Of a stretch of 21,893 nt of DNA, positions 5,101-21,893 are shown in pieces. The notes under the pieces were generated by a model. It was given only the letters and a program-made list of their open reading frames with translations. It made no database searches and was not told the DNA's origin. The stretch is from a virus: IMG/VR virus record IMGVR_UViG_3300033571_010153, positions 1-21,893 of that record; one strand, written 5' to 3'. A program made the position numbers and the translations under genes. Position 1 is the first letter of the stretch; each line of letters starts with the position of its first letter.

Positions 5101-8100
5101 GCTGCGCTTAAGGAAGTAGACAAGCGGGTAGCCGAGGAAACTGGGGCCCTCACAGCGGACACCGCCGTTGCGCGTTCTACGCGCCCAGAAGAAAAGATTG
5201 ACGAAGAGCGAAAGCTGAAAAGCCAGAAGCGTATGTTTGAACTGACTGGAGGTAAGGTTACTCAGCTACCTCCAGCGGGGCCGGAACAAATCCGTCAAGT
5301 CATAGACCCACGTGGGGCTCGCACGCGCCAGCCCATGTACCTCGAAAACGCCACCAACTCCCTTAAACTGGAGGGTGACCTGCTGGCCGCAGTACAAGCA
5401 GGTGACCTGAAGCAGACGATCTCTTTGCTCGTAGGCAAGATGGGCCAACGCCCCGAGGCGCAGCAGATTCTGCGCAGGTTCCAGTCACTCGGGTTGAAGA
5501 CGAAAATTGTTGTGGCAGCGCTCGGTAGGCCGGGTGAGTACGACCCCATCACCGACACCATCACGCTCGACCCGGAGCTTGGGTTGAATGAGCACACGCT
5601 GGTGCACGAGCTATCGCATGCTGCGCTTGCTAACCAGATTGCCAACCCGAACTCCAAGGTAGCCAAGGACTTTGGTGGGTTCTTCCAGATCGTGAAGAAC
5701 CAGCTTGGTGGTACCTACGGCGGCACTGACGTGCAAGAGTTCGCTGCAGAGATCATGGGCAACGAGTCATTTGCCGCGGCAACCAAAGCAATGAAGGCCC
5801 CCAAAGGCGGCAGTCTGTGGGACCGCATCGTCCAGACTATCGCTGAGTTCTTCGGCTTCCGTAAACAGCAGTCTGTATACGACCAAGCCATCAAGTACAT
5901 CGAGGAGCTGCTTAACGTACCGCGCTCCGCGGAGCCCACCGTCACTGAAAAACTGTTCATGGGTACGCCCAAGTCGGCAGCCGAAGCGCTTACTAGCATA
6001 GGTAAAGAAGTACGCCCGGTTACCCGTGAAGCGCAAAGTGACTTCCGCAAGCTGTTGCGCAAAGTAGACGGGGTGGACCCCAAGTTCGAGGCAGTCTACT
6101 CCACTGCGCTGAAAGCCGCGTTCTCCTTGATGCGGCTGCAGAATATTTACGACATCTACAAAGACGCAGGTTCAAAATACACCCCGCTGGCTCGGGCGCT
6201 GAAAAAGCTGTCCGACTCCCTTGAACGCCGCCTTGGAGAAATTGAACGCCGTAGCAAAGTATTCAATGACAAGTACAATGGCTGGCTCAAGATAGCCAAC
6301 GACAAGAAATACGCTGCCCATATGGGGCGCATGGTTACACTGGCAGACGAAGCGCGCCGTAACGGAATAGACTTGGTGCCTGAGAACAAGTTCGAGCCAT
6401 CCAAAGACCAGCAACAGACGTACGAGCGCCTGCGTAACGTGCTAAACAATCTGCCAAAACCTGTGCGCGACATGTACCTCGAAATGCGCAGGGACTATGA
6501 CAAAGAGTTTCAGGCGAACCGCGAGTTCTTGCTGGCTCAGTACCGCGATAACCCTACTGCCTACGCAGAGATGAAACAGGCGTTCGAGGCCCAGCATGCT
6601 CTCAAAGGCTATATCCCTGACATGCGGTTTGGGGATTTTGTGCTGGAGTACACCGAAGCCCGTACTAACCGCAGGGTGGTGCAGCAGTTTGAGTCTGCAG
6701 GAGAGCGGGCACAGGCTATAGAGCAGCTGAAGCTGAAAGATGGTGAGTATGAGACCTACTCCCGCGTAACGGAAGCTACTTACGACCAGAAGAAAGTGCC
6801 GGATGGTTCCTTCCTACACAGAGTGATGGACGACCTAAACAAAACCGGCGCTTCGCAGAAGCAGCTGGATACTGTGTACCAAGCGTATCTCAGCATGTTC
6901 CCGGCGCAGTCGCTGGCCAAGCGCATGATGCGCTCTGAGAATGTAGCGGGGCAGTCTAAAGACTTGCTGCGGGGCTACGCCGCCACAATGATGCAGTGGG
7001 TGCGCCACCGTGCGAATGCGCAGTACAGCCCGGTAATCGACGAGGCACTTGACGAAATTCAAGCCCAGCGGGATGTAGGCGGTACACATACTCTGGCGCT
7101 GAATAGTGTACTCAATAGCCCGGGCTCAAGAGACTTCCTGCACAACCCTACGTTCAACCCGCTGATCTCCACCGCCACTGGCATCAGCTTTGGGGCGTAC
7201 ATCCTCGGCAACGTGTCCTCAGCGATTATCAACCTGACTGCGCTGCCGTTGGGTTGGAACATGCTTGGTGCCAAATACGGATATAACGCCGCCCGCAAGG
7301 CCATGGTAGATGCCACCAAAATAATTACCCCGCTCTCCCTCAAAGATATGACGGGGGATACTAAGGCGTGGGATAACGTCCCCGCCAAGTACCGCAAGTT
7401 GGTTGATGCCATGCTCGACCGCGGACAGCTGCAGCACACGCAGACGCGAGAGATTCTTGAGGGGCGGGGTAAGTCGTCTGCCGAGATGGGCTCTGGTGCC
7501 GCCGGGCTTATGGTGAAAGCACTCGACCTTGGTAGTCGCCCGTTCAACGCGGCAGAAAAAGTGAACCGTGGTGCTATTGGTATAGCAGCCTATGAGATGG
7601 CGCGTAAAGGCGGTAGCGGCGTGGCCCCGATGACTGAGGCAGCGGCGATTGAGTATGCAATAGAAGTAGTGAAGAACATCAATACTTCGGGCACCGCGGC
7701 TACCGGCCCTCGGGCGTTCCAGACAGCCCCCGGGCGTTTGATCGGTACGTTCAAGAGCTTTGCCTTAAACCAAGTTGCTGTGCTCGGCATCACCGCGGCC
7801 AAAGCCTTCATCGGCGCAGACCCCGAAACTAGGCGGGTAGCACGTAGACAAGTGCTGGGCACCTATGCCGTATCCGGTGCGCTCGCCGGAGTGGCTGGTA
7901 TGCCATTCGTTACAAGTACTGTGTCGATTCTCAACTCCGTAATGCAGGGGTTGTTTGGCGATGACGACGATGACTACGAATACTTTAACAGCCAAGAGTG
8001 GATGCAGGACGTGCTGGCCGACTGGGCGTACAAGGGGCCTATCAATGCGTTCCTCAATCTCTCGGTAGCCGACAGAACAGCAATTACCAACAACTTGGCG

Positions 8101-8706
8101 CCTACGCCGGACTCTCAGTTAGTTGAGGACGTTGGCTATGTGCGGGCTATGATTATCCAGCTCGCCGGGCCAGCAGCGGGTGTTGCAGTGAACGTAGAGA
8201 AGGCGATTACCGAAGCCAAAGAAGGACGCTGGGGTCGTGTGCCGGAATACTTACTGCCCACCGCAGGGGCAAACCTGTTCAAAGCCGCACGCTTCTACCG
8301 TGACGGTGCGGACGTCAACAAAGATGGCGAGCCCGTAGACGACGACATCAACGCTTACAATGCAGTGATGCAGGCCATTGGCTTCGCTCCGGCGGACCGC
8401 GCACTTATCTACCAAGCCCGTACTATGGCGTTGCAGTTTGAAGCTTTTGTTGAACAACACAAGGCTCAGCTCCTTGACGCAGCATGGGCAGCCTTCAACG
8501 TTGGGGATACTGAGACCTTTGAAGAAGTCCGGGGTCGGTTGGTTACGTTGGGACAGCGATACCCGGGGTTGGTGCAGAACGATACTATTGAGCGCTCCTT
8601 CCGGTCTCGTGCGCAGAGTGTACAGGACAGCGTAACAGGCGTAACCCTTAACTCGTCCCTACGCCCCGAGCAGATACGCCGGTTCTTCGATGACTTGGAA
8701 GACTAA
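2191..8706 (+). CDS. Giant polyvalent virion protein with HExxH peptidase motif
   Basis: At 2171 residues this is the largest gene. Residues 1-35 form a helix with an AHAAGDTAAA pattern common at the start of phage polyvalent proteins. Residues 138-178 are hydrophobic and Gly/Ala-rich. Residues about 560-620 are an Ala/Glu/Lys coiled coil. A zincin motif HELSH lies at 1139-1143, with VQEFAAE at 1181-1187 supplying a plausible third metal ligand (E1183 or E1187). Long helical regions follow. Two hydrophobic stretches, about 1660-1690 and 1888-1922, may cross or enter membrane; an acidic DDDDDYEYF patch follows the second. The C-terminus resembles large polyvalent-protein-associated (LPD) domains. 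By position and size it resembles the ejectosome protein gp16, with a peptidase where T7 has a transglycosylase. The ejection role is inference; a protein injected to act on host targets is the alternative. Confidence 0.85.
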   Translation: MAELDDAIRAFRNAHAAGDTAAATTLARYIQQIETQAPAPGGPFASLYEVSASPETPEAPTMGGEFGRSVESILSSLRTTGSAVFGDEEEAALAGLERQQKIGEEYGEGPSFERVKRAYEEDGLLSAAGEAVSQIPSAVAGQLPILGALGAGATAGQVAIPVPGLGAAIGAATVGVPLFFGSNIERQAETQQAEGVPVDISTGRALTAAVGQTALESAGAAATVGKGVIKSILKLADDAQLDSAAARNLTGAALAKLRGEAATPVTMGARAGAAGRGALTAAAVEIPTEIAQQVIERAQAGLDVLSPEALAEYGEAAYLAGIAGGTLGGATRVGEPGRVQRRAETRLREAAEQETQDLFAAEQERQGADKIPAGMQPDLFGELAPVMAPQTRAGEAQQEELRLQEQQREAYRTRGGEERFAPPGTFAATELPDLMEGRDRDVFDYMKSQGLTEATALETLPTKEDNEERITFNKIKALMNEQLVMAAAAIEAPRIPVAPDQAPLTLDPAKRIADLTPEERSVFERAVEAVRARRQKGTLGTGKGQQPLPKALTNILVGEEATAAKAEEAAAAKEREDAAADRAKKQADREAEAARKQALKDIAPAKVDLVGGLQARKTPIELAQDQELVDIAKAQKMQAGRAAPTTQQAAPAAPKFPTTREERVALAKEVGLNPSLAMVRNDSGILAQYANQDLTDPAVATRFASDLETAKKAFKGDYADRNSDAVNTLVARFAPKATQPEPSQEVVDDLQTADTQKTQPPNTEETSGDAQAPSTETETAQGEVAETEENLGVEFEAPAAGKRVVVRRVPISPEDVAVAEALAAQEVGEGLPTSDAQAAARYFRAYDPASALRVMVAEGVPKYTTTETVTTEDKAKNKAFARRAVRWVKANMSPEAAKAIAKHAKDFKNILSRTQVTAKKRAIRNEIDEAEVAARAEKAEQETTQKVDAALRKQEAASPTAAKKLDPATRAALKEVDKRVAEETGALTADTAVARSTRPEEKIDEERKLKSQKRMFELTGGKVTQLPPAGPEQIRQVIDPRGARTRQPMYLENATNSLKLEGDLLAAVQAGDLKQTISLLVGKMGQRPEAQQILRRFQSLGLKTKIVVAALGRPGEYDPITDTITLDPELGLNEHTLVHELSHAALANQIANPNSKVAKDFGGFFQIVKNQLGGTYGGTDVQEFAAEIMGNESFAAATKAMKAPKGGSLWDRIVQTIAEFFGFRKQQSVYDQAIKYIEELLNVPRSAEPTVTEKLFMGTPKSAAEALTSIGKEVRPVTREAQSDFRKLLRKVDGVDPKFEAVYSTALKAAFSLMRLQNIYDIYKDAGSKYTPLARALKKLSDSLERRLGEIERRSKVFNDKYNGWLKIANDKKYAAHMGRMVTLADEARRNGIDLVPENKFEPSKDQQQTYERLRNVLNNLPKPVRDMYLEMRRDYDKEFQANREFLLAQYRDNPTAYAEMKQAFEAQHALKGYIPDMRFGDFVLEYTEARTNRRVVQQFESAGERAQAIEQLKLKDGEYETYSRVTEATYDQKKVPDGSFLHRVMDDLNKTGASQKQLDTVYQAYLSMFPAQSLAKRMMRSENVAGQSKDLLRGYAATMMQWVRHRANAQYSPVIDEALDEIQAQRDVGGTHTLALNSVLNSPGSRDFLHNPTFNPLISTATGISFGAYILGNVSSAIINLTALPLGWNMLGAKYGYNAARKAMVDATKIITPLSLKDMTGDTKAWDNVPAKYRKLVDAMLDRGQLQHTQTREILEGRGKSSAEMGSGAAGLMVKALDLGSRPFNAAEKVNRGAIGIAAYEMARKGGSGVAPMTEAAAIEYAIEVVKNINTSGTAATGPRAFQTAPGRLIGTFKSFALNQVAVLGITAAKAFIGADPETRRVARRQVLGTYAVSGALAGVAGMPFVTSTVSILNSVMQGLFGDDDDDYEYFNSQEWMQDVLADWAYKGPINAFLNLSVADRTAITNNLAPTPDSQLVEDVGYVRAMIIQLAGPAAGVAVNVEKAITEAKEGRWGRVPEYLLPTAGANLFKAARFYRDGADVNKDGEPVDDDINAYNAVMQAIGFAPADRALIYQARTMALQFEAFVEQHKAQLLDAAWAAFNVGDTETFEEVRGRLVTLGQRYPGLVQNDTIERSFRSRAQSVQDSVTGVTLNSSLRPEQIRRFFDDLED

Positions 8707-8897
8707 ACCCGCCACACCCGAATGCCGCGCACCCCACCCTCAATGACTGCCTTGTGCACAGTTCTGTAGCGTAAGCGTTTGAGGGTGGGGAGCATCTCTT
8801 GCCAAGCAGAAGGCGGGTGCAGGCAGGGGATAAAAAACGAAGCCCCCACCGTGAACTCCCGCCAGTTAACGCTGTAGCTAACCTTCTCCACTATCAT
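8703..8897 (-). CDS. Small conserved phage protein ending in GIRVWRV
   Basis: A 64-residue protein whose ATG lies inside the end of the primase-helicase gene (20-base overlap), so it is probably translated by coupling; no clear Shine-Dalgarno precedes this ATG. An in-frame GTG further down (TVGASFF) has GGGAG close by and is an alternative start. The pattern VGASFFIPCL, a Leu/Arg-rich helix, then GGVRGIRVWRV looks like a compact alpha/beta domain and recalls small proteins of many aquatic phages. Its function is unknown to me. Its TAG stop overlaps the TAA stop of the giant virion protein on the opposite strand, so it closes the leftward block. The conserved-looking C-terminus argues against a chance ORF. 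Confidence 0.7.
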   Translation of the reverse strand: MIVEKVSYSVNWREFTVGASFFIPCLHPPSAWQEMLPTLKRLRYRTVHKAVIEGGVRGIRVWRV

Positions 8898-11739
8898 TGG
8901 ACATCATCGGCATAATCGAGCCCAGTGAAATGAAGTCGGGGTTTGAGCAGTCCAGTACAATCGCGTGGACACCGGGGGACACAATACTCATACCTTTTGA
9001 CATGCGCTTTGTGCCAGCCCCCAAGTATATACCACGCGCCTCCAGCTGCTTAAGTGTGTCCTTGTAGTTGATCTGCAACTCAACGCAATCGTGTTTAAGT
9101 GCCTTAGCGTTGATGTACATGCGCTTGGTGTCCGGCTCGTAGCGGATAAGCAGTGGGCCCCGGGGCTCCAAGATGGGCATCTCCTGCATCTTAGCCATCC
9201 CCCCACGCCCATCTGTAGCCTCGTTGATTACCACAATGTTCTGCATGTGGCGGTTAATGAAGTCCCCTACAACTGAGCTGGCGTTGGATACCGGCGGGGC
9301 AACTTCCGTGCGTAGCTCAAGAAGCATCTGGGTAGCCCATGCGTATATGCGTTTCATGTCCCAGTCGAAGAGCCCAAGAGCTTTCTGAGCTATCAACCCG
9401 CCAGCGATATTGGCGGCCACCACGGCGGACCAGAAGCGCTCCCGTTGCGTCAGCTTCAACTCGGTGTCCAGCTTGCGTTGTACATCCCGAGCGGCCTGCA
9501 CTGCCTCTTCCAAGTTGGACACAAGCCAAGAAGCGTAGATGCCCCCAGCGTGCCCGTAGTTTTCCTTAAGCTGGTGGTCGAATAACCGCTTGGCTTCATC
9601 CACCGGGATAGCTTTGCAGAAATCAATCTTGTACTCCAGAAGGCGCATAAGCTCACCGTCTGGGCTGTTTTTGAATGACGTCATCCGCTCAGCGAACGCA
9701 GCGTTTGAGCTGCACAGCGAGATGGTCGCCCACGAAGTAAGGTTTGCCCTAAGCTCGTTTGCCGAAGACTTAAGTCTGTCCTTACCTCTCCCCTGCGACA
9801 TGCTGTATGCAAGCGTTGAGAAATCTTGCGGGGTTAGGTTGGTCATTTCGTCCACGCAGTACGGCAGGTTGTTCAGCAAGCCAAGCTTCATTATCTTGGC
9901 ATTGAGCGTGTCCTCCCACATGCCGCATAGTTTTTCCGGGTTACCGTATACGCTGTTACACATATACAGGATGGTTGATTTGCCTGTACCAGAAGTTGGG
10001 TGGATGACGTTGATGATGGCGCCGTTCTGCCCAAGGAACTTAAGTAGTGGGGCACCAAACGCAGTGAGTGCGGCGAATGCATGGGGCTCCAACCCTTCAC
10101 GCCCATACAGATTGAACACCTCTTTCCACTTCTCCAGCGTACCCGCTGTGTGCATGTGCTGCGCAAGGGCTGACGTGGATAGCGATACGGGGCTATGGAA
10201 GGTACCTTCGCGGGTTATCTCGCGGTCCCCAAGAATAAACTTGCTGTCTTTCTCTGCCCACCCAAACTGTAGTCTCATAAGTTCCGCCTTTTTTCTTTGT
10301 TGGAGGTCGCGTACTGCGGTCATCAGGTACGTGGCCAATAATGGAAATCGTTTCTCGGGGCACACTATGCCTTCTGCGGCCAAGTGCCTGCGGAGTTCAG
10401 TTCTATCCGCCAGCTGCACGTTTGTTGTTACGAATTCTTTGATGCCATCCATAGGCATATGCACTTTAAGGTATGCCACGTCTCCTTGTATTGGGTCTCT
10501 CATCCGCTTAACTACGTACAGGTCATGCTCATACACCAACTCGGGCTCTGACTCCTCCTCGGCAGGGTTCAAAAAGTACACCCCACCATGCTTACCTCTG
10601 AAAAACGGATCGGGATAAGCTGGCACTGTGTGCACAACCGGCTCGTCCTCGCTCTCCTCTGCAGGCTCCTCCACCACCTCCGTGGGCTCCGGGGCGCTAC
10701 GTGCGATGGTCTTGCCTAGTGAGATGGGGCTCGTGAGCTTACCGTAGTGAGGGCAGCCGGCGCAACCACCGGGGTTGTTTTTCTCAAACTCCGCGCAGGA
10801 GTGCGGGCCCTTGATCCCTACAATCTTACGTTCGACTGCGCCGGGGTCGTAGTCTGGGTGCCCTTCGGACAGCTTGTGTATCGCTATGTCTTTGTCAGAA
10901 CAGAACTTCGCTATGGATAGCGCATCAAACCACCGAGGCTCGGCCAGCGTGGCTCTCTCCATGTAGCAGCTTAACAGTTGGCTGCAGCCTTCTCCTTTGC
11001 CACACTTGCGCATGATGGATGCGAAGCTGGACTCTATGTTGGCCTGCATGGCCTTGCCCAATGCGGTCAGCTCGCGCTTGGGGCGGCTCACCTGCTGTAC
11101 TTCCTCCACCCCAAGTATTTCTTTCAGCTGTTCCAGTGATACAGGATCGGCCTCCTTCAATACAGCAACCGCAAGTGGTGGGTCTTCCTTGAAGTTCAGC
11201 GTGCCGGGTAGTCGCATAATACGAGCCACCTCGAACACGGAGCCATCAACATACAGGCCGTGTGTATTGCATACCCCACGCAGCTTGGCTGCTACTGGCT
11301 CCCACACACTGCGGGATACTTCCTCCGTAAGCGGCCAATACGCATGTATACCTCGACCCGAGTTGACCACTACAGGCACGGGGAGCCCAGCATCCTGTAC
11401 AAACGCCCGCAACGCGGTAAGCCCTGCTACCTGTGATGCGTAGCCAGCGGGCCTGCCAGTCTTGGGGTTCAACAGCGCTTTATCAGGGCCACAGTCGATG
11501 TCCAGCCAGAAGGACTTGAGCGCAAGAACATTGTCCTTGGTGCGGTTCTCGTCTGTTGCGTACTTCGCAACACCAAAGAAAACGTTCTTGCCTTGGGATA
11601 CAAAACGTTCTGCAGCCTGATCCAGTTCTTCCCGCGTCTCTACAAACTTCTGCCTAGAGAAACCATCAGTCCCTATGCCTACGACGCAATACCACCCCTC
11701 GTGTGGCTGCACCGCACTCAACAAGTCGAAGTTACCCAT
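8878..11739 (-). CDS. Primase-polymerase / helicase fusion (AEP + AAA ATPase)
   Basis: This 953-residue protein likely primes and unwinds DNA at the phage fork. Residues 1-200 look like an archaeo-eukaryotic primase domain: metal-binding LDID (D80, D82) and SGRGIH ending at H132, followed by ARIMRLPGTLNFK. A Cys/His cluster around residues 310-340 (CAEFEKNNPGGCAGCPHYGK) resembles the zinc knuckle at the end of such primase domains. Residues about 400-800 form a DUF927-like helicase: Walker A SGTGKST with K587, Walker B YCVDEM with D630 and E631. The ATG is 2 bases after the stop of the HTH gene, so translation is probably coupled. There is no separate DnaG- or DnaB-like gene in the window, which fits one protein doing both jobs. 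Exact polymerase activity cannot be judged from sequence alone. Confidence 0.88.
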   Translation of the reverse strand: MGNFDLLSAVQPHEGWYCVVGIGTDGFSRQKFVETREELDQAAERFVSQGKNVFFGVAKYATDENRTKDNVLALKSFWLDIDCGPDKALLNPKTGRPAGYASQVAGLTALRAFVQDAGLPVPVVVNSGRGIHAYWPLTEEVSRSVWEPVAAKLRGVCNTHGLYVDGSVFEVARIMRLPGTLNFKEDPPLAVAVLKEADPVSLEQLKEILGVEEVQQVSRPKRELTALGKAMQANIESSFASIMRKCGKGEGCSQLLSCYMERATLAEPRWFDALSIAKFCSDKDIAIHKLSEGHPDYDPGAVERKIVGIKGPHSCAEFEKNNPGGCAGCPHYGKLTSPISLGKTIARSAPEPTEVVEEPAEESEDEPVVHTVPAYPDPFFRGKHGGVYFLNPAEEESEPELVYEHDLYVVKRMRDPIQGDVAYLKVHMPMDGIKEFVTTNVQLADRTELRRHLAAEGIVCPEKRFPLLATYLMTAVRDLQQRKKAELMRLQFGWAEKDSKFILGDREITREGTFHSPVSLSTSALAQHMHTAGTLEKWKEVFNLYGREGLEPHAFAALTAFGAPLLKFLGQNGAIINVIHPTSGTGKSTILYMCNSVYGNPEKLCGMWEDTLNAKIMKLGLLNNLPYCVDEMTNLTPQDFSTLAYSMSQGRGKDRLKSSANELRANLTSWATISLCSSNAAFAERMTSFKNSPDGELMRLLEYKIDFCKAIPVDEAKRLFDHQLKENYGHAGGIYASWLVSNLEEAVQAARDVQRKLDTELKLTQRERFWSAVVAANIAGGLIAQKALGLFDWDMKRIYAWATQMLLELRTEVAPPVSNASSVVGDFINRHMQNIVVINEATDGRGGMAKMQEMPILEPRGPLLIRYEPDTKRMYINAKALKHDCVELQINYKDTLKQLEARGIYLGAGTKRMSKGMSIVSPGVHAIVLDCSNPDFISLGSIMPMMSNDSGEG

Positions 11740-11741
11740 GA

Positions 11742-11966
11742 CTACTCGCTAATAAAGTGGGCGATCCTTTCGTGTAGTTTCTTGTGTGGGCTGTATGCAC
11801 CGACGAACCAACAATACACAGCCGCGCGGGAGACTCCGAACTTCTTCGCCACTTCGCTTACTGCTATGTCGTTGTCAATGCAATACCGCCCGAGCCTGAC
11901 TCCTATTAACTTGGGGCTGGCGGCCTTGGTTTTTTGCAGCATCGCCAATGTGTACCCGGCAGACAT
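11742..11966 (-). CDS. Small helix-turn-helix DNA-binding protein
   Basis: This 74-residue protein has a clear helix-turn-helix: SEVAKKFGVSRAAVYCW at about residues 37-53, in the style of Xre/Cro or resolvase-type HTH modules, with a basic helix before it. It consists of little more than the DNA-binding unit. Its ATG shares one base with the stop of the preceding gene (TAATG), and GGAG lies about 9 bases upstream. Its stop is 2 bases before the primase-helicase ATG. A regulator of this operon or of the host is possible; an origin-binding accessory factor is also plausible because it sits between a possible ssDNA-binding protein and the primase. No operator repeats were identified near the candidate promoter at 13336-13363. 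Confidence 0.75.
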   Translation of the reverse strand: MSAGYTLAMLQKTKAASPKLIGVRLGRYCIDNDIAVSEVAKKFGVSRAAVYCWFVGAYSPHKKLHERIAHFISE

Positions 11967-12886
11967 TATTTTTTACTCCAGTCAGCAAGCGCAGCAGCAA
12001 GGTCGGCTTTGGTTGCGTCATCAGAGGGCTGCTCTGCTTGCTCCTTTTTGTTGGGGCGCTTTTTTGGTTCCTCTATCCCGTCGTCAGGATCGTCCGAGCG
12101 CTGCACTTTCGCTTTGGGCGCTTCCTGCTCAGCGGGTGCCGCATGCTTCGGTTCCTTACGCACACCATCCACTGACGCCACTGTAATGCGGGTGTACATC
12201 TCCGCTTCCGGACGTGCTTGGGCTTTCTGTATCAGGGTGTACTCTTCGTCGGTTACAGGACGGCTTGGCGAGAACACGAGCTCCATACCTTCAACCTCGT
12301 CGTCAAACGCTACTGTGGTAACCACGGTATCCGGGGACTCGCCATTAGCCACAAGGAACTTTACGTAGCTCTCGAACGGATGCACGTTACCTGAGCCCTT
12401 ACCGAACAACGATTTGGATGGGATGCTCATCTGGTATATATCACCCGTGGTGTCGCCTTCGAGCAACACAGAGATACGGCGCTGGAAGCGGCAAGCACGC
12501 GTGCCGTTCTCACCAGAGCCCTTAACGTTCATGGGGCAGTCGGCGCAGTTAGCATGCTGTTTGTCGGTTGCTGCGGCCTCTGGTATGTCGCCTGCATTGG
12601 ACCAGCAGTTCGGCATTGTGGCCTCGGCGTTCGGGTCGTACTTACCCGCATAGTACACACGGGATACCTTCGGCTGTGCAGCTATCACAATAACATTCAT
12701 GGTGCCACGGACTGAGTTACCGATCTGCTCACCGTTGACCAGCTTCTTGAATGTTCCGTTAATGTTGCACTGTATGCGGCGCGAGGTGGACGAAGACGCG
12801 AGGGTCTGGCCTAGTTTGGTCAGGCGCTGCTCAGAGCGCACACCGACCGCGTTACGACTATTGAATATGGATACGTCATTGCTCAT
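11966..12886 (-). CDS. Possible ssDNA-binding protein with Cys cluster
   Basis: This 306-residue protein has a beta-rich N-terminal two thirds and a long charged C-terminal tail (from about 245) ending AALADWSKK. Four cysteines, C94, C114, C117 and C132 (PNCWSN, CADCPM, RACRFQ), are spaced like a zinc or structural site. The core contains MNVIVIAAQPKVSRVYY and RRISVLL strands. I recall relatives beside polymerase and helicase genes of aquatic phages, usually unnamed. A compact beta domain, a disordered acidic/basic tail and a place directly upstream of the primase suggest a single-stranded DNA-binding protein, but no OB-fold motif can be proven by eye. GAGAG lies 8 bases before the ATG. Stop and next start overlap as TAATG. 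Confidence 0.6.
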   Translation of the reverse strand: MSNDVSIFNSRNAVGVRSEQRLTKLGQTLASSSTSRRIQCNINGTFKKLVNGEQIGNSVRGTMNVIVIAAQPKVSRVYYAGKYDPNAEATMPNCWSNAGDIPEAAATDKQHANCADCPMNVKGSGENGTRACRFQRRISVLLEGDTTGDIYQMSIPSKSLFGKGSGNVHPFESYVKFLVANGESPDTVVTTVAFDDEVEGMELVFSPSRPVTDEEYTLIQKAQARPEAEMYTRITVASVDGVRKEPKHAAPAEQEAPKAKVQRSDDPDDGIEEPKKRPNKKEQAEQPSDDATKADLAAALADWSKK

Positions 12887-12896
12887 ATCTAAGCTC

Positions 12897-13307
12897 TCAC
12901 TTATTAGGGGTTGGTTTACGAACAGATATTACATACTTCCTGTCTGCCTGCAGCCCGGGAGGTACGCTGCCCGGGTTGTCAGCTAAAAACTCTTTCATGT
13001 GCGTGTTGTGTATTCGCTTCTCCAGCAGGTGAAACGCATCGTGGGCCTTGATGAACTCGTGCATCTCGTGCCAGTCACTTGTCCAGTAGTTAGTGCGGAT
13101 GATGCGTGATGCAGTTCCAAGGGGAGTCCGTAGGCTATCTAGGTTCTGCTCCGCACACAAAGCAAGCAGCGCCTCCGCCATCTTCTCCTGCGACTCCTTT
13201 AGTGTCTTGATCTCTTCCTCTTTGTCAGCGATAGCGTTGCGGATGGTTATGTAGGCAGCCACAAGCTTGTCTGCGGTTTGGGTTTCTTCAGCGGGCAGTG
13301 ATTCCAT
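12897..13307 (-). CDS. Conserved phage coiled-coil protein, function unknown
   Basis: The chosen ATG at 13307 gives 136 residues and follows AAAGGAGGAGCT, one of the best ribosome sites in the window; the frame opens 27 bases earlier, but without such a site. Residues 10-60 form a likely coiled coil (IADKEEEIKTLKESQEKMAE). The remainder, with LRTPLGTASRI, NYWTSDW and a C-terminal YVISVRK, is a compact alpha/beta region that resembles an unnamed protein repeatedly seen in phage replication modules. It is the first gene after the sigma70-like promoter at 13336-13363 and is followed by the possible ssDNA-binding protein. A replication or nuclease-modulating role is suggested by position only. 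Confidence 0.75.
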   Translation of the reverse strand: MESLPAEETQTADKLVAAYITIRNAIADKEEEIKTLKESQEKMAEALLALCAEQNLDSLRTPLGTASRIIRTNYWTSDWHEMHEFIKAHDAFHLLEKRIHNTHMKEFLADNPGSVPPGLQADRKYVISVRKPTPNK

Positions 13308-13335
13308 AGCTCCTCCTTTCGGGTTGGGGAACATA

Positions 13336-13363
13336 AGTATATCGGGGGTATTTACAGTGTCAA
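13336..13363 (-). promoter_or_regulatory. Near-consensus sigma70 promoter
   Basis: On the minus strand TTGACA (13363-13358, perfect -35) is separated by 16 bases from TATACT (13341-13336, five of six -10 bases). It fills the 56-base gap between the helicase stop and the start of the gene at 13307, immediately ahead of its strong Shine-Dalgarno. Predicted transcription would start near 13328-13330 and cover the coiled-coil protein, the possible ssDNA-binding protein, the HTH protein, the primase-helicase and the last small gene. The match suggests recognition by host RNA polymerase holoenzyme. Activity has not been shown. Confidence 0.7.
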
Positions 13364-14920
13364 CTAGATTGTGTCTATTTCTTGGCGATATAAATCAACT
13401 ATCTTGACGTGACTATCTATGTTGCTCTGGAGCATTGTGTAGAGCCGCTCTTCTACACCACTCCCTACGACGTTTACAATTGTCATGTTGTGTCGCTGCC
13501 CCGGGCGGTCGATGCGCGCGTTGGCTTGCAGGTAAGTCTCTACACTTGCGACGGGAGCGTACCATACTACCGTATCTGCGGCGGTCAATGTAACCCCGTG
13601 CGCAGCAGCTTGCGGCTGGATGATAAGCACGCGAGGGTCCGGCAGCGTCTGGAACGCATCGAATATATCTGAACGCTTGTTGGCTGATACGGCGCCCGCT
13701 ATGACTTCACACGTAATTCCTTTGGCTGTCAAAAAGTCCCGTAGCAGAGCTATAGTGTGCGTAAACGGCACGAACACCAATACTTTATGGCTTGCCTCTT
13801 CAATGACTTCCAGTACAACGTTAAGCCTGTTGCTTACGTCGAACTCCACCACCTCACCCGTGTCGCTGTATACAGCTCCTCCGGATATTTGCAGTAGCTT
13901 GTTCAGGTTCACCGCTGCGTTTACGGAAGTAATAGACTGCCCCGCCGCCTCCATAGTCATTTGTTTCTTAAGCAGTTTGTAGTACTTCTGTTGCTGCGGA
14001 GTTAGCGGAGCCTCCCTAGACACGATCACTACTGGAGGCAAGTCCAAGCAATCCTTCTTCTCGAAGCGTATTGCTGGTTGGAGCATGGTGTGCACTGTTT
14101 TGTTGGCCGTTATCTTCGGCTTCCATACAAACTGGCTGACTTTGTACATAACCATGTCGCGGTACTGCCCAAAGTATTTGGGGGCCCGCTCCGGGCGGAT
14201 CAGCTTGGCAAGTCCGTAGGCGTCCAGCGGGGACTGCGCGGCAGGCGTACCTGTCAAACCCCATAGCCACTCCACCGTATCTGTAAGCTCCTTCATCAAC
14301 TTCCATCTGCGGGTCTGTACGTTCTTGTAGCTGTTAAGCTCATCTATGACAACGATGTCGAACTTGGCGTCCATGAGCTCTTGATGCACCACCTCTACGC
14401 CATCGTAGTTGATGATGACGAACTCTACGCCAGAGTCTATGGTTTTCTTACGTGCTTTAGGGTCTCCGTAAGCAACGGCGCAACTTCGGTGCATAGCAAA
14501 CTTGAACAGGTCTTTCTGCCATGCTGCTTTCATTATTGACATAGGGCATACAACGAGCACGCGTTTGACCAGCCCGAGCTTCATCAGGTAATCCACCGCC
14601 CATATGACACACGCTGTCTTTGAAGTGCCAGCCTCCGAGAAACAGAAAGCCCGCTTGTGCAGGGTCAGGAAAGATGCTGTAGTGCGTTGGTGCTCGAACG
14701 GCGTCAGCTTGCCCGTCCATTGATAATCTCGCAGCAACGGCGACGGCACATCTTTAACGCCCAAGTCTGCGAGCTGTTGCGCTTCGTTCAGCCCCCAGTA
14801 CACAGCCACCTCATGCATGCCATCTTTGGCCCCAAGGTCTTTGGACTTCTCAATTACTTCGGTGACTTTATGCGGCGTGCGGGTCTTCAGCACGAGGGCT
14901 TTGTTGTCAACTATCTGCAT
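13364..14920 (-). CDS. SNF2-like superfamily 2 DNA helicase/translocase
   Basis: This 518-residue protein has the two RecA-like lobes of SF2 ATPases. Residues 74-82 carry the Q-like motif (PFEHQRTT); Walker A is EAGTSKT (K101, T102); motif II is VIDELN (D193, E194); motif III is GLTGTPAA near 221-228; motif V is the HGVTLTAAD region near 441-449; motif VI is QANARIDRPGQ with R469 and R472 as arginine fingers. Overall length and motif VI fit the SNF2/Rad54-like branch found in phage replication clusters. It could remodel forks or recombination intermediates. The ATG is 3 bases after the stop of the preceding basic HNH-like gene. The Walker A has Ser before Lys where Gly is usual; such variants occur in SF2 proteins and need not mean inactivity. 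Confidence 0.9.
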   Translation of the reverse strand: MQIVDNKALVLKTRTPHKVTEVIEKSKDLGAKDGMHEVAVYWGLNEAQQLADLGVKDVPSPLLRDYQWTGKLTPFEHQRTTASFLTLHKRAFCFSEAGTSKTACVIWAVDYLMKLGLVKRVLVVCPMSIMKAAWQKDLFKFAMHRSCAVAYGDPKARKKTIDSGVEFVIINYDGVEVVHQELMDAKFDIVVIDELNSYKNVQTRRWKLMKELTDTVEWLWGLTGTPAAQSPLDAYGLAKLIRPERAPKYFGQYRDMVMYKVSQFVWKPKITANKTVHTMLQPAIRFEKKDCLDLPPVVIVSREAPLTPQQQKYYKLLKKQMTMEAAGQSITSVNAAVNLNKLLQISGGAVYSDTGEVVEFDVSNRLNVVLEVIEEASHKVLVFVPFTHTIALLRDFLTAKGITCEVIAGAVSANKRSDIFDAFQTLPDPRVLIIQPQAAAHGVTLTAADTVVWYAPVASVETYLQANARIDRPGQRHNMTIVNVVGSGVEERLYTMLQSNIDSHVKIVDLYRQEIDTI

Positions 14921-14923
14921 GGG

Positions 14924-15193
14924 TTACTTCTTACTATGTCCGTTGCGGGCGCGGTTCTTGCTGGGGGACTCCAACCTGTAACCATCTGCGTTACTGCCCC
15001 CTTTGCTGAGCATCTTGTTGTGGCTCACGTCTTTACCCTTGCGGCGCGGGGACTTCTTGGTGATGGTGCCGGTGTCCTTCTTATCCACCGCACGTCTTGC
15101 ACGTTGCCTCTCCATGCGGTCGTCGTGCTCGCCCCGCTCAACTTGCATCGCATACTCTTTCTTATATGGTCTGGGTTTGTTCACGTACGGCAT
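14924..15193 (-). CDS. Small basic HNH-like protein
   Basis: This 89-residue, very basic protein starts at an ATG preceded by AAGAGGTGAATT. The N-terminal half is Lys/Arg-rich and probably disordered or DNA-contacting. The C-terminal half has KGKDVSHNK (D55, H58), SKGGSNADGY (N68) and SKNRARNGH (N80), the spacing of a minimal HNH-type finger: Asp-x-x-His, Gly-Gly-x-Asn, Asn-Arg. Similar short proteins are common in phages and are of unproven activity. The paired zinc cysteines of fuller HNH nucleases are absent. It lies between a RecB-like nuclease and the helicase, suggesting a role in DNA processing; a packaging-associated or merely structural DNA-binding role is also possible. Confidence 0.65.
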   Translation of the reverse strand: MPYVNKPRPYKKEYAMQVERGEHDDRMERQRARRAVDKKDTGTITKKSPRRKGKDVSHNKMLSKGGSNADGYRLESPSKNRARNGHSKK

Positions 15194-15196
15194 AAT

Positions 15197-15874
15197 TCAC
15201 CTCTTCAAGTTATGTGGGCATGTGGACACAGGGCAGAACCTGCATAGCGGTCCGCTTACAGGATTCCATACTCCGGTCTGCTCTGCAACTACTAACCGCT
15301 CCAGCGCGGTATCAAAGGTAGCCAAATACGAAGTGCGGTTTTTGGCTGTGTGTTCCTTCTTGACAAACTCCCCACTTACTACGTACAGCAGGCCAGACTT
15401 TATACTCGTGACCCATGGCATATGGGTAAATACCGCACCCGCCAACATGTCCAACTGCGTAGGGTCCGCGTACTTGGCGTTCTTGCCTGTCTTGTAGTCC
15501 ACTAAGTAAGCGGTAGGAGTGTCTACTATAAGCAAGTCGGCAATGCCCCGCCACCAAACATCCGCTGCATCAAACTCCGCCGGGTAGTACTTACCGTCTT
15601 CATACCCCACACCGAGTTTTAGCTCGCAGTACTTGGTGCCGGGGATACGCAGCAGCGCATCTAGGATAGGCTGCATATAGCTGTACTCTGGCGGTACCGG
15701 CACGCCGTCCCTTATATACTCCTCAGCAGCTGTGTGAACCAAGTTACCGTACCGGGTTGCTTCGCTGCCGTCGTCCTTCGTGTCTTTGACTATCTTAAGG
15801 TGGTAGTACTTTTTGGGGCACTGTTCAAAGGTCTTGATACTACTGTATGACCATGCTTGTGAAGGCTTCAACAC
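15197..15874 (-). CDS. RecB/Cas4-like PD-(D/E)XK nuclease with Fe-S cysteines
   Basis: From the chosen GTG at 15874 the protein has 225 residues. It opens with the family helix SYSSIKTFEQCPKKYYH (C19), then GNLVHTAAEEY (H47), GIADLLIVD (D113), YLVDYKTGK (catalytic D126 and K128), Q140, and a C-terminal CRFCPVSTCPH (C211, C214, C219). These are the nuclease motifs and four-cysteine iron-sulfur site of the PDDEXK_1/AddB/Cas4 group, implying a DNA exonuclease or endonuclease for recombination or end processing. A TTG at 15871 overlaps the preceding stop as TTGA and is an equally good start. The frame stays open to a GTG at 16144, but that extension is Arg/Ala/Gly-rich and overlaps the well-initiated 55-codon gene at 15868-16035, so I prefer the short form. 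Confidence 0.88.
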   Translation of the reverse strand: MLKPSQAWSYSSIKTFEQCPKKYYHLKIVKDTKDDGSEATRYGNLVHTAAEEYIRDGVPVPPEYSYMQPILDALLRIPGTKYCELKLGVGYEDGKYYPAEFDAADVWWRGIADLLIVDTPTAYLVDYKTGKNAKYADPTQLDMLAGAVFTHMPWVTSIKSGLLYVVSGEFVKKEHTAKNRTSYLATFDTALERLVVAEQTGVWNPVSGPLCRFCPVSTCPHNLKR

Positions 15875-16035
15875 CTGCCCCCTTTCCGGAACTTCCCATC
15901 CGGGCCTCGGTAGTCGTTCTTCTGCGCTTTCTTCAGCTCCTCGATCAGCAGCGCCCGCTCCCGCGTGAGCACGGCTATTTCCAGTTTTGCGTTTTTTAGC
16001 GCGGCCCACGGGTTTACCAGTTCTCGCAGTGTCAT
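15868..16035 (-). CDS. Small coiled-coil protein (55 aa)
   Basis: An ATG at 16035 has AGGAG 7 bases upstream and opens 55 codons: MTLRELVNPW, then a Leu/Glu/Lys heptad helix (NAKLEIAVLTRERALLIEEL) and a terminal RGPDGKFRKGG. The helix is a likely coiled coil and the Gly-Arg-Phe-Arg tail is typical of small phage proteins. The stop overlaps a TTG start of the nuclease (TTGA), which fits coupled translation. It occupies a different frame from the open extension of the nuclease. The 105 bases between 16036 and 16140 hold no other convincing gene; their only open frame is that extension. Function is unknown. Confidence 0.65.
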   Translation of the reverse strand: MTLRELVNPWAALKNAKLEIAVLTRERALLIEELKKAQKNDYRGPDGKFRKGGRC

Positions 16036-16140
16036 GGCTATCTCCTATGTGTTTTACTTTGTTCCACCCTGCTATGTAGCTGGGGCTTTTACCTTTGAGG
16101 AGTACTGCGTCCTCGGGGTCTGGAGTGCTGTTGGGGCGCG

Positions 16141-16581
16141 TCACTGGCTTGGCACCAACACGAAATGCCGCTCAATGTCATAGTACCCGACAAGCTCAGT
16201 GTCCTCCGGGTCGTTACGGTCTGACCTGCCGCCGATGTCCACTCTGTCTGGTGTGGTTATTTTCATACAGCCAACCGCGTCCGTCCAGCCTACTATCAGG
16301 AATACGGGTACGTTAGTAACAGCACCAAGCCGCCCCGCCGCCATCACTTTATCGAGAGATAGCATATAAGTGCTGTAAGCGCCCTTCTTGTTTGTCCTGC
16401 ACTTAAGCTCGGCAAACGCTACCCGCTCACCCTTGCGGTACACAGCGTAGTCTATCTGGGCTTTGCGCGACAACTTGCGCAGTTCGCACTTCCATTGCGA
16501 CTTGAGCAGGTTCGCCAACCTACTCTCCGCAGTCATATGGTCCTGCGTCTCATACAGGGGGCGTCGCGGCGAAACATCCAT
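16141..16581 (-). CDS. Putative PD-(D/E)XK endonuclease
   Basis: The ATG at 16581 has AAGGA about 7 bases upstream and gives 146 residues; a longer open frame from 16653 lacks such a site and overlaps the hydrolase. The core reads TAESRLANLL (E19), QIDYAVYRKG (D44) and VAFAELKCR (E58, K60), the Glu, Asp and Glu-x-Lys pattern of the PD-(D/E)XK fold, followed by a helix with YMLSLDKVM and a strand VPVFLIVGW. Such small phage proteins are often resolvase-like or VRR-NUC-like endonucleases. Residues 110-146 form an acidic tail of unknown use. It lies beside a second nuclease of the same superfamily but a different branch. Fold assignment is fairly confident; substrate is not known. Confidence 0.72.
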   Translation of the reverse strand: MDVSPRRPLYETQDHMTAESRLANLLKSQWKCELRKLSRKAQIDYAVYRKGERVAFAELKCRTNKKGAYSTYMLSLDKVMAAGRLGAVTNVPVFLIVGWTDAVGCMKITTPDRVDIGGRSDRNDPEDTELVGYYDIERHFVLVPSQ

Positions 16582-16601
16582 TGCAGATTCCTTGTACTTA
16601 A

Positions 16602-17000
16602 CTAGCGGTAGAAAACGTGGTCTTTTATGCGCACCACACGTTGCAAGCCCCACTTGGGGTTAACTTTCAAGCTGTGGTAATGCGTGGCGCCTTTGGCTCT
16701 ATCGCTTGGCGTGTTGTTCAACACTAACGTAGCGACTGCGCGTGCCCTGCGAAGTGCGCGTCTGTCTCTGGGGGCATCGCTCTTGCCGTCACAGTACCAA
16801 TCAAACTGGCATTGCCCAATCACGGGGTTCCCGCGCCGATCCACTGGGCCTTGATGCACGACGCTGCATACATCGTCTGGATAGCGCGGATCGTGTACTC
16901 GGTTCATAACTACTTGGGCTACGGCTATCTGGCCTTCAAGGCTTTGATCCCGGGCCTCGTGGTATATCGTCAGGGCTAGGCACAGCATTGCGTTTATCAT
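16602..17000 (-). CDS. SleB-type cell-wall hydrolase
   Basis: From the ATG at 17000 (GGGGGAG 5 bases upstream) the protein has 132 residues. It matches the Hydrolase_2/SleB fold: LTIYHEARDQSLEGQ with the presumed catalytic E15, IAVAQVVMNRVHDPRYPDDV, QCQFDWYCDG, and near the end GATHYHS. This family cleaves peptidoglycan as a lytic transglycosylase or amidase-like enzyme, so it is the candidate endolysin. The hydrophobic start is part of the catalytic helix, not a convincing signal peptide, so export would need a holin or another route; none was identified in the window. Its first 65 bases overlap the preceding gene. A lysis gene amid early-type genes is unusual in placement; a non-lytic role in host-wall remodelling cannot be excluded. 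Confidence 0.85.
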   Translation of the reverse strand: MINAMLCLALTIYHEARDQSLEGQIAVAQVVMNRVHDPRYPDDVCSVVHQGPVDRRGNPVIGQCQFDWYCDGKSDAPRDRRALRRARAVATLVLNNTPSDRAKGATHYHSLKVNPKWGLQRVVRIKDHVFYR

Positions 17001-17352
17001 CTTCGCTCCCCCACGCTCCAGTAGTTTTAACGCGCCCGCACACGACAGCGCCATGTTCTTTTGCTATCTGTATCCCTACCCGCATTTGTCCCTGCGTCAT
17101 TGCTGTGGCCAACAACTGCCGCGCTTTTTGTGCTCGTGGGTTAATACTAACGTCGTGCCATAACCAACCATAAGCTTCGACCACCGGCTCAGGAAGGGAC
17201 CCCAGTAACATTTCGTTTTCTTTCGCAAACAGCGCCACTGCATCCATAACCGCTCCAATAACCCCATCACGCAAGCGCCAATCTGTTATCGTCACGTTAG
17301 CCGCAATACAGGTCTCTATTTGTTCGGGCGTTAATTCATTTACTTTTATCAT
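16936..17352 (-). CDS. Hypothetical protein, helical
   Basis: The ATG at 17352 with GAGAGGTGG upstream gives 138 residues. The body is helical (ELTPEQIETCIAANVTITDW, then GAVMDAVALFAKENEMLLGS) and contains VVEAYGWLWHDVS and a Gln/Arg helix, then a hydrophilic tail rich in Asp, Pro and Gly that overlaps the hydrolase start by 65 bases. I do not recognise the family. The start overlaps the end of the preceding zinc-finger gene by 17 bases, so it belongs to the small-gene array. Tail composition suggests disorder. Confidence 0.65.
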   Translation of the reverse strand: MIKVNELTPEQIETCIAANVTITDWRLRDGVIGAVMDAVALFAKENEMLLGSLPEPVVEAYGWLWHDVSINPRAQKARQLLATAMTQGQMRVGIQIAKEHGAVVCGRVKTTGAWGSEDDKRNAVPSPDDIPRGPGSKP

Positions 17353-17542
17353 CACAAACCCACCTCTCTCTTAGGATAGCTTGGTGGAACGACCCCGCTG
17401 CTGGCCAGCACTCCCAGCAGACCCACCCCTTGCGCACGCGGTGCATAACTCCGTTGTCCGCTTTTTCGTAGGCAAAGATTTCTTCTTGCACTGTCCGGCA
17501 AAGATCACAACGTCGCTCAAGGGGTTCATGCTTTTTTATCAT
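17336..17542 (-). CDS. Small zinc-finger protein (CxxC pair)
   Basis: This 68-residue protein has RRCDLCRTV near residue 12 and WVCWECWPA near residue 41, a CxxC...CxxC pair that probably binds zinc. GGAG lies 7 bases before its ATG, inside the end of the preceding gene. The stretch between the pairs is a short beta hairpin-like region (EEIFAYEKADNG, VMHRVRKG). Such proteins often bind host proteins or nucleic acid, but the target here is unknown. It overlaps both neighbours, consistent with cotranscription and coupled translation. Confidence 0.7.
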   Translation of the reverse strand: MIKKHEPLERRCDLCRTVQEEIFAYEKADNGVMHRVRKGWVCWECWPAAGSFHQAILRERWVCDDKSK

Positions 17543-17747
17543 CGCCGTACTCCAACTGTAATATAAGTTGGCAGTAGTGTAGCGCCTTTTCTACATCGGC
17601 CCTACCGTTCTTGGCGCGGTGCCGTGTTATGTACTTCACAACATTTCCTTCGAGGAAACTAAGCCCGTTGGCGTGTATGTATTCCACGGGCTGTATGGTC
17701 ATCTCTTTGTAATGGCTACCACCCACTTGAGTATCCGTAGCTTTCAT
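17526..17747 (-). CDS. DUF3310 (SaV-like) protein
   Basis: This 73-residue protein matches DUF3310 closely: QVGGSHYKEMTIQPVEYI, then ANGLSFLEGNVVKYITRHR, KNGRADVEKALHY and a final helix. The family is widespread in phages and is a small helical protein sometimes related to nucleotide-metabolism folds, without an established reaction. GAGGAAGAAGAG precedes the ATG, which overlaps the prior stop as ATGA. Length is normal for the minimal form of the family. Confidence 0.9.
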   Translation of the reverse strand: MKATDTQVGGSHYKEMTIQPVEYIHANGLSFLEGNVVKYITRHRAKNGRADVEKALHYCQLILQLEYGDDKKA

Positions 17748-20395: not shown

Positions 20396-21893
20396 CTAGC
20401 ACTGCCCGTAACGCGGGTCAGCACCAGCCTCGCAATTCAGTGGTAGTTCTGGTGCCCACGAGGGGCGTATCTTCATGCACAACCCAACGTATTCAAGCCC
20501 GCGCTCTTTCTCCGCTTCCGGCACCAACACACACACGGCATCATGCACAGTCATAACAACTTTGTACTTCTGGGCTATGCGCAACAACTGTTCGCCTACA
20601 ACTATGCGGGCCAGCGCCTGCACGCAATTTTCAACAACTTTGCCCCCGTATATCCTGTTTGGTATGGTCGTCCGGCCTTTCTTGGTGTCATATACAAACT
20701 CGACCCTACCCTCCTCGTTCTTGACACGTCTAAGGTTAGGATACTTTATGTACAACCCGTTTGGCAAGCGTATTCCCTTACGACCTTCAACAATTACTAC
20801 ACCTTCTTTACCGAACGGTATAGTCTTGTCTTCAAGTATAGCACCCAGCACTTGCTGCCCTTGTTTCCACAACTCCGGAATAGCTTTGTATGTACTACGG
20901 TACACACTAATGATGCGCTCACACTCCTCAAGGGGTAGGTCAACACCAAAGTTTTTAAGCTGCGCGTGGAACTTCTTGTACCCCATACCAAACCCACAGT
21001 TATGGACTATGAGTGGCCCGGCATCTGTCGCAATTGTGAATCTGTTCCTCGGCCCTGCGTAGGCGATGTCGTAGGTCATCAAGTTCCGTTTGCAATACTC
21101 GAACTTTACGTTTGTTCCTTGCGTTCTCCGCTCTCGTGACGAACCGGAGATTTCCCGGCTCATATCCTCGGTTGTTGTCAATCCGGTCAATATCAAGCTT
21201 GGGGTCGTCCCAGTGTTCAAGTGTGAGCAAGTATTGGAGGAATGCGCCCCTGTCAGTTCTCCACGGGGCATACACTTCAATGCCGCGCCCCCCATAGTCT
21301 TCATGTTGGCTACCAGTTGTACTATGGCATCGTGATATGCAACTAGAGATGCGGTTGAGCAGCCGCTCCCGATGTTCATCGTCCGGAAGTATGTCGCTAT
21401 ACCCCCAATAAAGTTTGCGAGTGCGCGTAGAGGACTTTTTAGCGCAGACGTTGCACCGGGTGGACTTGAAGTTTTTGAAGTTGTGCCTGTCAACCCGGTA
21501 CTCCCCACTTCCACAGTCGCACCGCACAATGAGCGCCGCGACGCCACCCCGGACTCCTCGGATATACCCAGTAACGGTAAGCTTGCCGCTGCGGTCTCCA
21601 ATGCTTGGGAGCGGGTAGCTTCGCCTAGCACCACATATTGCCATTCCTTCCATTGCGTCCCGCACAATACTCGGTGATCCGGCGTCAACCAAACGCCGCA
21701 ACTCTTCCACGTCTCTTTGACGCCTTTCTTCAGTAATCCGTGATGGCATACCCAATCCTCCCCATCCCAAAGTTTGTCGTGTAGGGTGACCTCTTCTATT
21801 GGCTTCCACCCCGAGTTACAGAGTACTGGAGTTCCTTCGGCAACACAACCCAATATAGTAGTCTTGCCATTAAAACGTTCCTCTTTGCTAACC
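20396..21893 (-). CDS. Family A DNA polymerase, intein-interrupted, 5' end missing
   Basis: The frame runs off the right edge, so the exonuclease domain and motif A are outside. Visible N-extein: RFNGKTTILG. Visible C-extein: CGFGMGYKKF onward. Joined, they give the O-helix (motif B) pattern R-x3-K-x6-GFGMG of Pol I-like polymerases, which binds the incoming nucleotide. Further on are IRLPNGLYIKYPNL, the conserved VQALARIVVGEQLLRIA helix and motif C MTVHDAV, whose Asp is a catalytic metal ligand; Ala replaces the usual Glu after it. It replicates the phage genome. The host protein is inactive until the 283-residue intein (20999-21847) splices out between G and C. The TTG at 21853 is not the start: the frame is open through it to the edge. 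Confidence 0.93.
   Translation of the reverse strand, partial: VSKEERFNGKTTILGCVAEGTPVLCNSGWKPIEEVTLHDKLWDGEDWVCHHGLLKKGVKETWKSCGVWLTPDHRVLCGTQWKEWQYVVLGEATRSQALETAAASLPLLGISEESGVASRRSLCGATVEVGSTGLTGTTSKTSSPPGATSALKSPLRALANFIGGIATYFRTMNIGSGCSTASLVAYHDAIVQLVANMKTMGGAALKCMPRGELTGAHSSNTCSHLNTGTTPSLILTGLTTTEDMSREISGSSRERRTQGTNVKFEYCKRNLMTYDIAYAGPRNRFTIATDAGPLIVHNCGFGMGYKKFHAQLKNFGVDLPLEECERIISVYRSTYKAIPELWKQGQQVLGAILEDKTIPFGKEGVVIVEGRKGIRLPNGLYIKYPNLRRVKNEEGRVEFVYDTKKGRTTIPNRIYGGKVVENCVQALARIVVGEQLLRIAQKYKVVMTVHDAVCVLVPEAEKERGLEYVGLCMKIRPSWAPELPLNCEAGADPRYGQC
21000..21749 (-). CDS. HNH homing endonuclease nested out of frame in intein
   Basis: A complete 249-codon gene in the -1 frame relative to the intein, same strand. 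ATG 21749 is 7 bases after GGGGAGG. Residues 51-60 (GDRSGKLTVT) and a CxC/CxxC zinc site (C77, C79, C99, C102) match the N-terminal domain of free-standing phage HNH nucleases. Residues 113-215 match their catalytic region: LNRISSCISRC, DYGGRGIEVY, LDIDRIDNN at 185-193, GYEPGNLRFVT and NARNKR. Residues 216-249 are a likely helix with HNCDRC. The TAA stop lies in the codons of the intein's last two residues. A GTG at 21809 would add 20 residues but has no comparable ribosome site. The enzyme would be made separately from the polymerase precursor. Target is presumably the intein-less polymerase gene; activity is inferred. Confidence 0.88.
   Translation of the reverse strand: MPSRITEERRQRDVEELRRLVDAGSPSIVRDAMEGMAICGARRSYPLPSIGDRSGKLTVTGYIRGVRGGVAALIVRCDCGSGEYRVDRHNFKNFKSTRCNVCAKKSSTRTRKLYWGYSDILPDDEHRERLLNRISSCISRCHSTTGSQHEDYGGRGIEVYAPWRTDRGAFLQYLLTLEHWDDPKLDIDRIDNNRGYEPGNLRFVTRAENARNKRKVRVLQTELDDLRHRLRRAEEQIHNCDRCRATHSP
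21757..21763 (-). promoter_or_regulatory. Shine-Dalgarno of nested HNH gene
   Basis: GGGGAGG lies 7 bases before ATG 21749. In the intein frame the same bases form part of the codons for DGED of the conserved LWDGEDWV stretch, so one sequence serves as protein motif and ribosome site. It decides the start of the nested gene over the upstream GTG. Confidence 0.75.

Follow-up and report, generated by a model that had tools for sequence, protein, structure and literature searches.

A putative mobile intein of phage DNA polymerases with an HNH endonuclease encoded in a second reading frame

The stretch of DNA analysed here, referred to as the window, is a virus record of 21,893 bases; between 21892 and 20396 its minus strand encodes the C-terminal portion of a family A DNA polymerase, into which an intein is inserted. 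The end of the N-extein (...KTTILG, 21848..21892) is truncated by the end of the window, the complete polymerase being seen in a second contig (L001); the intein occupies 283 codons of the polymerase frame (20999..21847) and the C-extein (CGFGMGYKKF..., 20396..20998), which belongs to the PHROGs DNA polymerase families, continues to the stop codon. The polymerase of L001 contains an identical element and matches Pfam DNA_pol_A. Within the intein an N-splicing domain (residues 1-90) is followed by a spacer (94-249) and a C-splicing domain (250-283), all on the minus strand. A preliminary description made from the DNA alone had reported an intein open over its whole length with every splicing motif, and both its coordinates and its frame were borne out. 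The residues by which inteins are recognised (Cys/Ser1, the block B T..H pair, a C-terminal His/Ser-Asn and a +1 Cys/Ser/Thr) are present in the window as Cys1, an 'LTPDH' block B with T55..H58, the C-terminal 'TYDIAYAGPRNRFTIATDAGPLIVHN' / 'IVHN' and a +1 Cys. All 162 homologous loci that were parsed have the splice residues C1 ... (H/S)N followed by (C/S), and these form invariant columns of the alignment.

Structure prediction agreed with the motifs. In an AlphaFold model based on a 60-sequence alignment, intein residues 1-90 and 250-283 reached a pLDDT of 93-98 and residues 94-249 stayed at about 33, so that the ordered intein fold is split by about 155 residues predicted to be disordered. 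When the model was compared with PDB structures by Foldseek, 40 of the 41 fold matches were inteins or intein-like domains, as expected of a HINT fold. The window element is thus an intein with complete splicing motifs and a predicted HINT fold, and would be able to splice.

The same strand contains, in frame -1 relative to the intein, an ORF of 249 aa that starts with ATG (21000..21749) and overlaps the intein by 750 of its 849 nt, that is 88%. It had been described as a zinc-finger HNH nuclease, and the phrog_374 profile of PHROGs agrees with that assignment, as it matches residues 50-216 with E=3.8e-32 and covers the zinc finger and the HNH core. This core (HNH aa ~46-215, minus strand, 21103..21611) was delimited by substitution rates and by invariant Cys and HNH-type residues, and corresponds to the spacer in the intein frame. 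In the window one could extend the open HNH frame back to a GTG at 21809, but the conserved ATG, preceded by a Shine-Dalgarno sequence (SD), is that at 21749. The ORF, conserved among its closest homologs (class 1, below), was modelled by AlphaFold as an ordered protein (mean pLDDT 84), and the model matched predicted viral HNH proteins, the top one being a Jerseyvirus ORF of phage LPSE1. Searches of Pfam and NCBIfam with the HNH protein gave no match, Foldseek against the PDB gave nothing significant and a PDB sequence search was uninformative; matches to solved structures were weak, that to PacI (3ldy) having a Z of 4.5 over 88 residues only.

Elsewhere in the window, a replication-type cassette on the minus strand (8878-17747, upstream and downstream) comprises a DUF927 protein, an SNF2-like helicase, two PD-(D/E)XK nucleases, a cell wall hydrolase and DUF3310. 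On the plus strand, 2191-8706 encodes a protein of 2171 aa that has a metallopeptidase-like motif (HELSHAAL); it matches nothing in Pfam and may be a large internal protein of the virion.

Homologs were collected by a search seeded with the HNH protein in IMG/VR, phage records and bacterial genomes, and the double frame that the preliminary description had proposed to look for in relatives was found in two classes of loci. In class 1 (80 distinct loci) the HNH lies at intein frame -1, the intein being in HNH frame +1, and 18,404 codons contain 0 intein-frame stops versus 1,533 in the control frame. Class 2 comprises 91 distinct, diverged loci in which the HNH lies at intein frame +1, the intein being in HNH frame +2, again with 0 intein-frame stops. 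Over the 171 unique loci no stop (0) occurs among 36,204 codons of the intein frame, against 2,638 stops in the remaining frame. The in-frame nuclease of a classical intein was found in none of them, the HNH being in frame -1 or +1 in every locus. Free-standing relatives of the HNH (n=7) have 6-33 stops in each other frame. In 4000 synonymous shuffles that kept the HNH protein and the codon usage of the window fixed, the intein frame never stayed open (0/4000; mean 5.7 stops). A frame open by chance can be rejected because of these shuffles and of the 171 loci without intein-frame stops. An assembly error merging two frames, which the preliminary description had named as a way to refute the arrangement, was rejected as well: the same double frame recurs in many genomes of isolates and in independent contigs, the stand-alone GenBank gene entry SETP12 among them.

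Class 2 loci (L117-L136 and L141-L220), which use the opposite alternative frame, derive mostly from Firmicutes prophages, with Streptococcus and Gardnerella phages too, and occupy helicase genes as well as polymerases; among the hosts are SF2/ResIII helicase genes (L208, L215, L219) and a diverged family A polymerase (L220). The host gene of L211 looked by eye like a replication ATPase and had no Pfam match. Among named phages, the nested form was found in Jerseyviruses (e.g. Ent2), in the E. coli Kagunaviruses fEg-Eco19 and fPoEco01, in the Dhillonvirus Sodalis phage SO-1, in E. coli phages PS2 and P-GXEC-L2P5, and in EBPR siphovirus 2, Pseudomonas phage MR14 and Vibrio phage 97.13. Some genes hold further inteins. 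The polymerases of L212:3-3317 and L120:1594-5406 have two, the one with the nested HNH and another at a different site, which in L120 looks ordinary, with an in-frame endonuclease; in Salmonella phage Ent2 (L036:4781-5660) the annotation of the helicase gene 3' of the polymerase includes a second intein, one with a LAGLIDADG endonuclease.

The Ent2 record describes its polymerase element as an 'intein, encoding splicing domains' and leaves the nuclease without annotation. Only one of the inspected phage records annotates the nuclease, as an intron ORF: in that of SO-1 it is the ORF of a 'type I self-splicing intron', though the polymerase is open throughout. HNH ORFs do occur in phage group I introns, and the annotation of SO-1 gp39 as such a case would fit an intron that by coincidence has no stop in the polymerase frame. 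An Rfam intron search returned nothing relevant at strict or even permissive thresholds, so the conserved RNA structure of such an intron was not seen, and the complete intein motifs, the fold and the lack of intein-frame stops in all 171 loci speak against it too. We rejected this explanation, to which we give almost no credence.

In order to follow selection in each frame, isolated substitutions per opportunity were counted between pairs of loci, each locus being used once; as the loci are related, all p-values are approximate. In class 1 exteins, polymerase-frame synonymous changes, which are nonsynonymous in the unused HNH phase, occurred at 0.37-0.40, and in the single-coding first part of the intein at 0.241. 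Within the HNH core, changes that are HNH-synonymous and intein-nonsynonymous occurred at 0.250, about equal to the neutral yardstick of 0.241, and those that are HNH-nonsynonymous and intein-synonymous at 0.040. HNH-synonymous changes creating an intein-frame stop were found in none of 40 opportunities (p ~1e-5 at a rate of 0.25), and intein-silent changes creating an HNH-frame stop in 0/39, versus 44/117 in the N-extein (p = 3e-7). In the N-terminal overlap the intein-synonymous change went down to 0.120 (p = 0.001 versus the single-coding part), which indicates that constraint acts on the N-terminal end of the HNH where its codons are shared with the splicing domain. Class 2 showed the same pattern in the other phase. 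Both frames are therefore kept, as the comparison of synonymous and nonsynonymous change proposed in the preliminary description could tell, and in the core the intein frame drifts about neutrally yet never gains a stop. By these frame-specific rates it is the HNH protein that is constrained in the core, where the intein reading only has to remain open, whereas the two ends serve both proteins. The earlier figure of 88% dual coding stands as the extent of overlap, but only the two ends are informative in both frames.

The signals with which the nuclease would be translated are written in intein codons. In the window the SD (GGGGAGG) and the ATG of the HNH (minus strand, 21747..21771) lie over the codons of the intein motif WDGEDWVC, the Val codon GTA giving the ATG. 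In class 1 the ATG consists of the last base of Val-GTA and the first two bases (TG) of the Cys codon that follows it in the motif WDGEEWV-C, and the Gly-Glu-Glu codons give the SD. Val is encoded by GTA in 38/38 class 1 loci with that motif versus a background of 23%, and the codon is not fixed in class 2, which serves as a control with the same motif and the other HNH frame; where class 1 loci lack the motif Cys, the ATG is two codons earlier (28/34). In class 2 the ATG is instead formed by Tyr-TAT and a following G, with TAT in 54/62 against a background of 49%, and SDs such as AAGGAGGT are encoded by Lys-Glu-Val codons of the intein. The SDs are stronger than those of synonymous shuffles (p = 6e-5 and 5e-9, the true significance being lower as the loci are related). 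A promoter scan for the HNH gave no credible promoter of its own.

Upstream of the ATG, and still inside the intein, the HNH frame is closed by a stop in 48/56 class 1 and 53/53 class 2 loci, at most 9 nt from the ATG in 35/53 of the latter. Together with the start signals, these stops support the proposal of the preliminary description that the HNH would be a separate protein, and internal initiation would explain both classes. Programmed ribosomal frameshifting, by which the N-extein, the N-terminal part of the intein and the HNH would be made as one fusion, could draw on the fact that in some class 1 loci, the window included, the HNH frame is open some way 5' of the ATG. It would, however, require opposite shifts, -1 and +1, in the two classes, and is disfavoured by this and by the upstream stops, as well as by an ATG and SD that are fixed through codon choice; we regard it as very unlikely.

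The distribution of the element would fit a mobile one. Among Jerseyvirus-like polymerases the intein was found in 166 phage records, and many other records have an empty site. The site of phage skrot is precisely empty, with flanks 95% identical to those of Ent2 (Ent2 versus skrot: GGTAAGGCT^TGCGAACTG), so that an intein inserted in frame into a conserved motif has exact intein-free counterparts in relatives (Ent2/skrot; 57% coverage class). Between Jersey- and Dhillonvirus the intein is 82% identical and the exteins 67%, and between Jersey- and Kagunavirus 94% and 87%; part of this gap reflects the dual-coding constraint. Two insertion points lie nine bases apart in motif B, GKT/C and ILG/C (the slash marking the point). 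At these sites (L067) the inteins are related class 1 members and the points are three codons apart in the polymerase motif, suggesting a site shift or two target specificities.

A further search, seeded with the intein, showed the HNH ORF to be intact in ~62/67 complete class 1 inteins; the others have a nonsense mutation (L258, L305) or an in-frame deletion of the core (L290), or are mini-inteins of 135 residues (L306:3001-3405 and L311:3001-3405). In these mini-inteins part of the N-terminal end of the HNH can still be read in the -1 frame, which looks like a fossil of the nested nuclease. Homologs with one frame broken and the other kept, named in the preliminary description as grounds for refutation, do exist for the HNH (~5/67), but the intein frame was broken in none of the 67. 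To judge from these sequences, HNH breaks under an intact intein are what would be expected of a decaying selfish nuclease in a host gene that still needs splicing.

Filled and empty sites, similar inteins in diverged polymerases and the series of decay stages would all be expected of homing. Competition between phages can involve free-standing HNH nucleases of their own, and the nested HNH might likewise be real and serve the phage otherwise, for instance by cutting the DNA of competing phages, its homing role having been lost. The coexistence of filled and empty alleles among close relatives, the transfer between genera, the insertion at the most conserved polymerase motif and the intein decay products without HNH all fit homing, and such a loss appears very unlikely. 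The two roles are not exclusive, since by cutting empty alleles the enzyme would already influence competition.

In an unrooted tree of HNH proteins, class 1 (100/100) and class 2 (92/92) formed separate clades with free-standing phage HNHs between them. Their separation and their different frames suggest two independent nestings of the HNH. In Aeromonas phage phiWae15 (L234:895-1626) a free-standing HNH relative lies directly 5' of an apparently uninterrupted DNA polymerase gene, an arrangement that is a possible forerunner of the nested form.

We consider the element to be, with a probability of roughly 0.88, a mobile intein with its homing endonuclease encoded in a different frame. According to this model, the polymerase mRNA would be read straight through as N-extein, splicing domain, spacer, splicing domain and C-extein, the spacer being nothing more than the HNH gene read in the other frame. 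The two splicing domains would fold together, excise the intein from Cys1 to Asn283 and restore polymerase motif B. An independent ribosome start at the SD and ATG inside the intein codons would give the free HNH nuclease, which would cut intein-free polymerase alleles, presumably near the insertion site, and repair would then copy the element in.

Classical mobile inteins, with an in-frame LAGLIDADG or HNH nuclease, likewise have a splicing domain, a nuclease between blocks B and F and site-specific presence or absence in conserved motifs; here, in contrast, the nuclease is a separate ORF in another frame, outside the intein polypeptide. Group I introns with an internal HNH ORF (I-HmuI type) also combine a self-splicing element with an independently translated HNH, as would be the case here, but the present element would splice at the protein level, and the whole nuclease gene must therefore stay open in the host frame too. 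In fractured genes, where split inteins flank a free-standing endonuclease gene, intein and nuclease are again separate proteins, whereas in our element the host gene is unsplit and the nuclease gene is nested and dual-coding. The closest precedent for the hidden frame is the out-of-frame HNH of ShiLan, which lies in a phage methylase without splicing domains, has a GTG start and no detectable RBS, and whose insertion, as far as is known, remains part of the host protein (2025, PMC11855218). Both have an insertion that is free of stops in the frame of the host gene and contains an HNH ORF in a different one, and both have a disjunct distribution suggesting homing; the element described here differs in being a complete splicing intein, with complete splicing domains in the host frame, in its conserved start and SD, and in the use of both alternative frames. 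The preliminary description had left the novelty of the nested form to a literature check, and the open full-text literature, a scope outside which preprints and most subscription journals fall, yielded no description of an intein that splices and has its nuclease out of frame.

The dual-coding intein is quite probably a widespread, unrecognised architecture that arose at least twice and in which the RBS and start codon of the nuclease lie within splicing-domain codons. If so, a nuclease would lie hidden in many of the inteins that are recorded as 'splicing domains only' and have a long linker without features, and the annotation of a common phage gene would change, the Jerseyvirus version alone being present in 166 cultured-phage records. 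It would add to in-frame fusion and split genes a further way in which an intein and its homing nuclease are paired, and would be a natural case of two entangled genes within a core phage replication enzyme; because nuclease frameshifts would also break the polymerase, the selfish gene would be shielded. Since cultured E. coli phages carry the element, splicing, internal initiation and homing would be separable by changes that are silent in one frame. The theory of overlapping genes would gain a clean natural case, in both phases, in which one frame is folded and the other only kept open.
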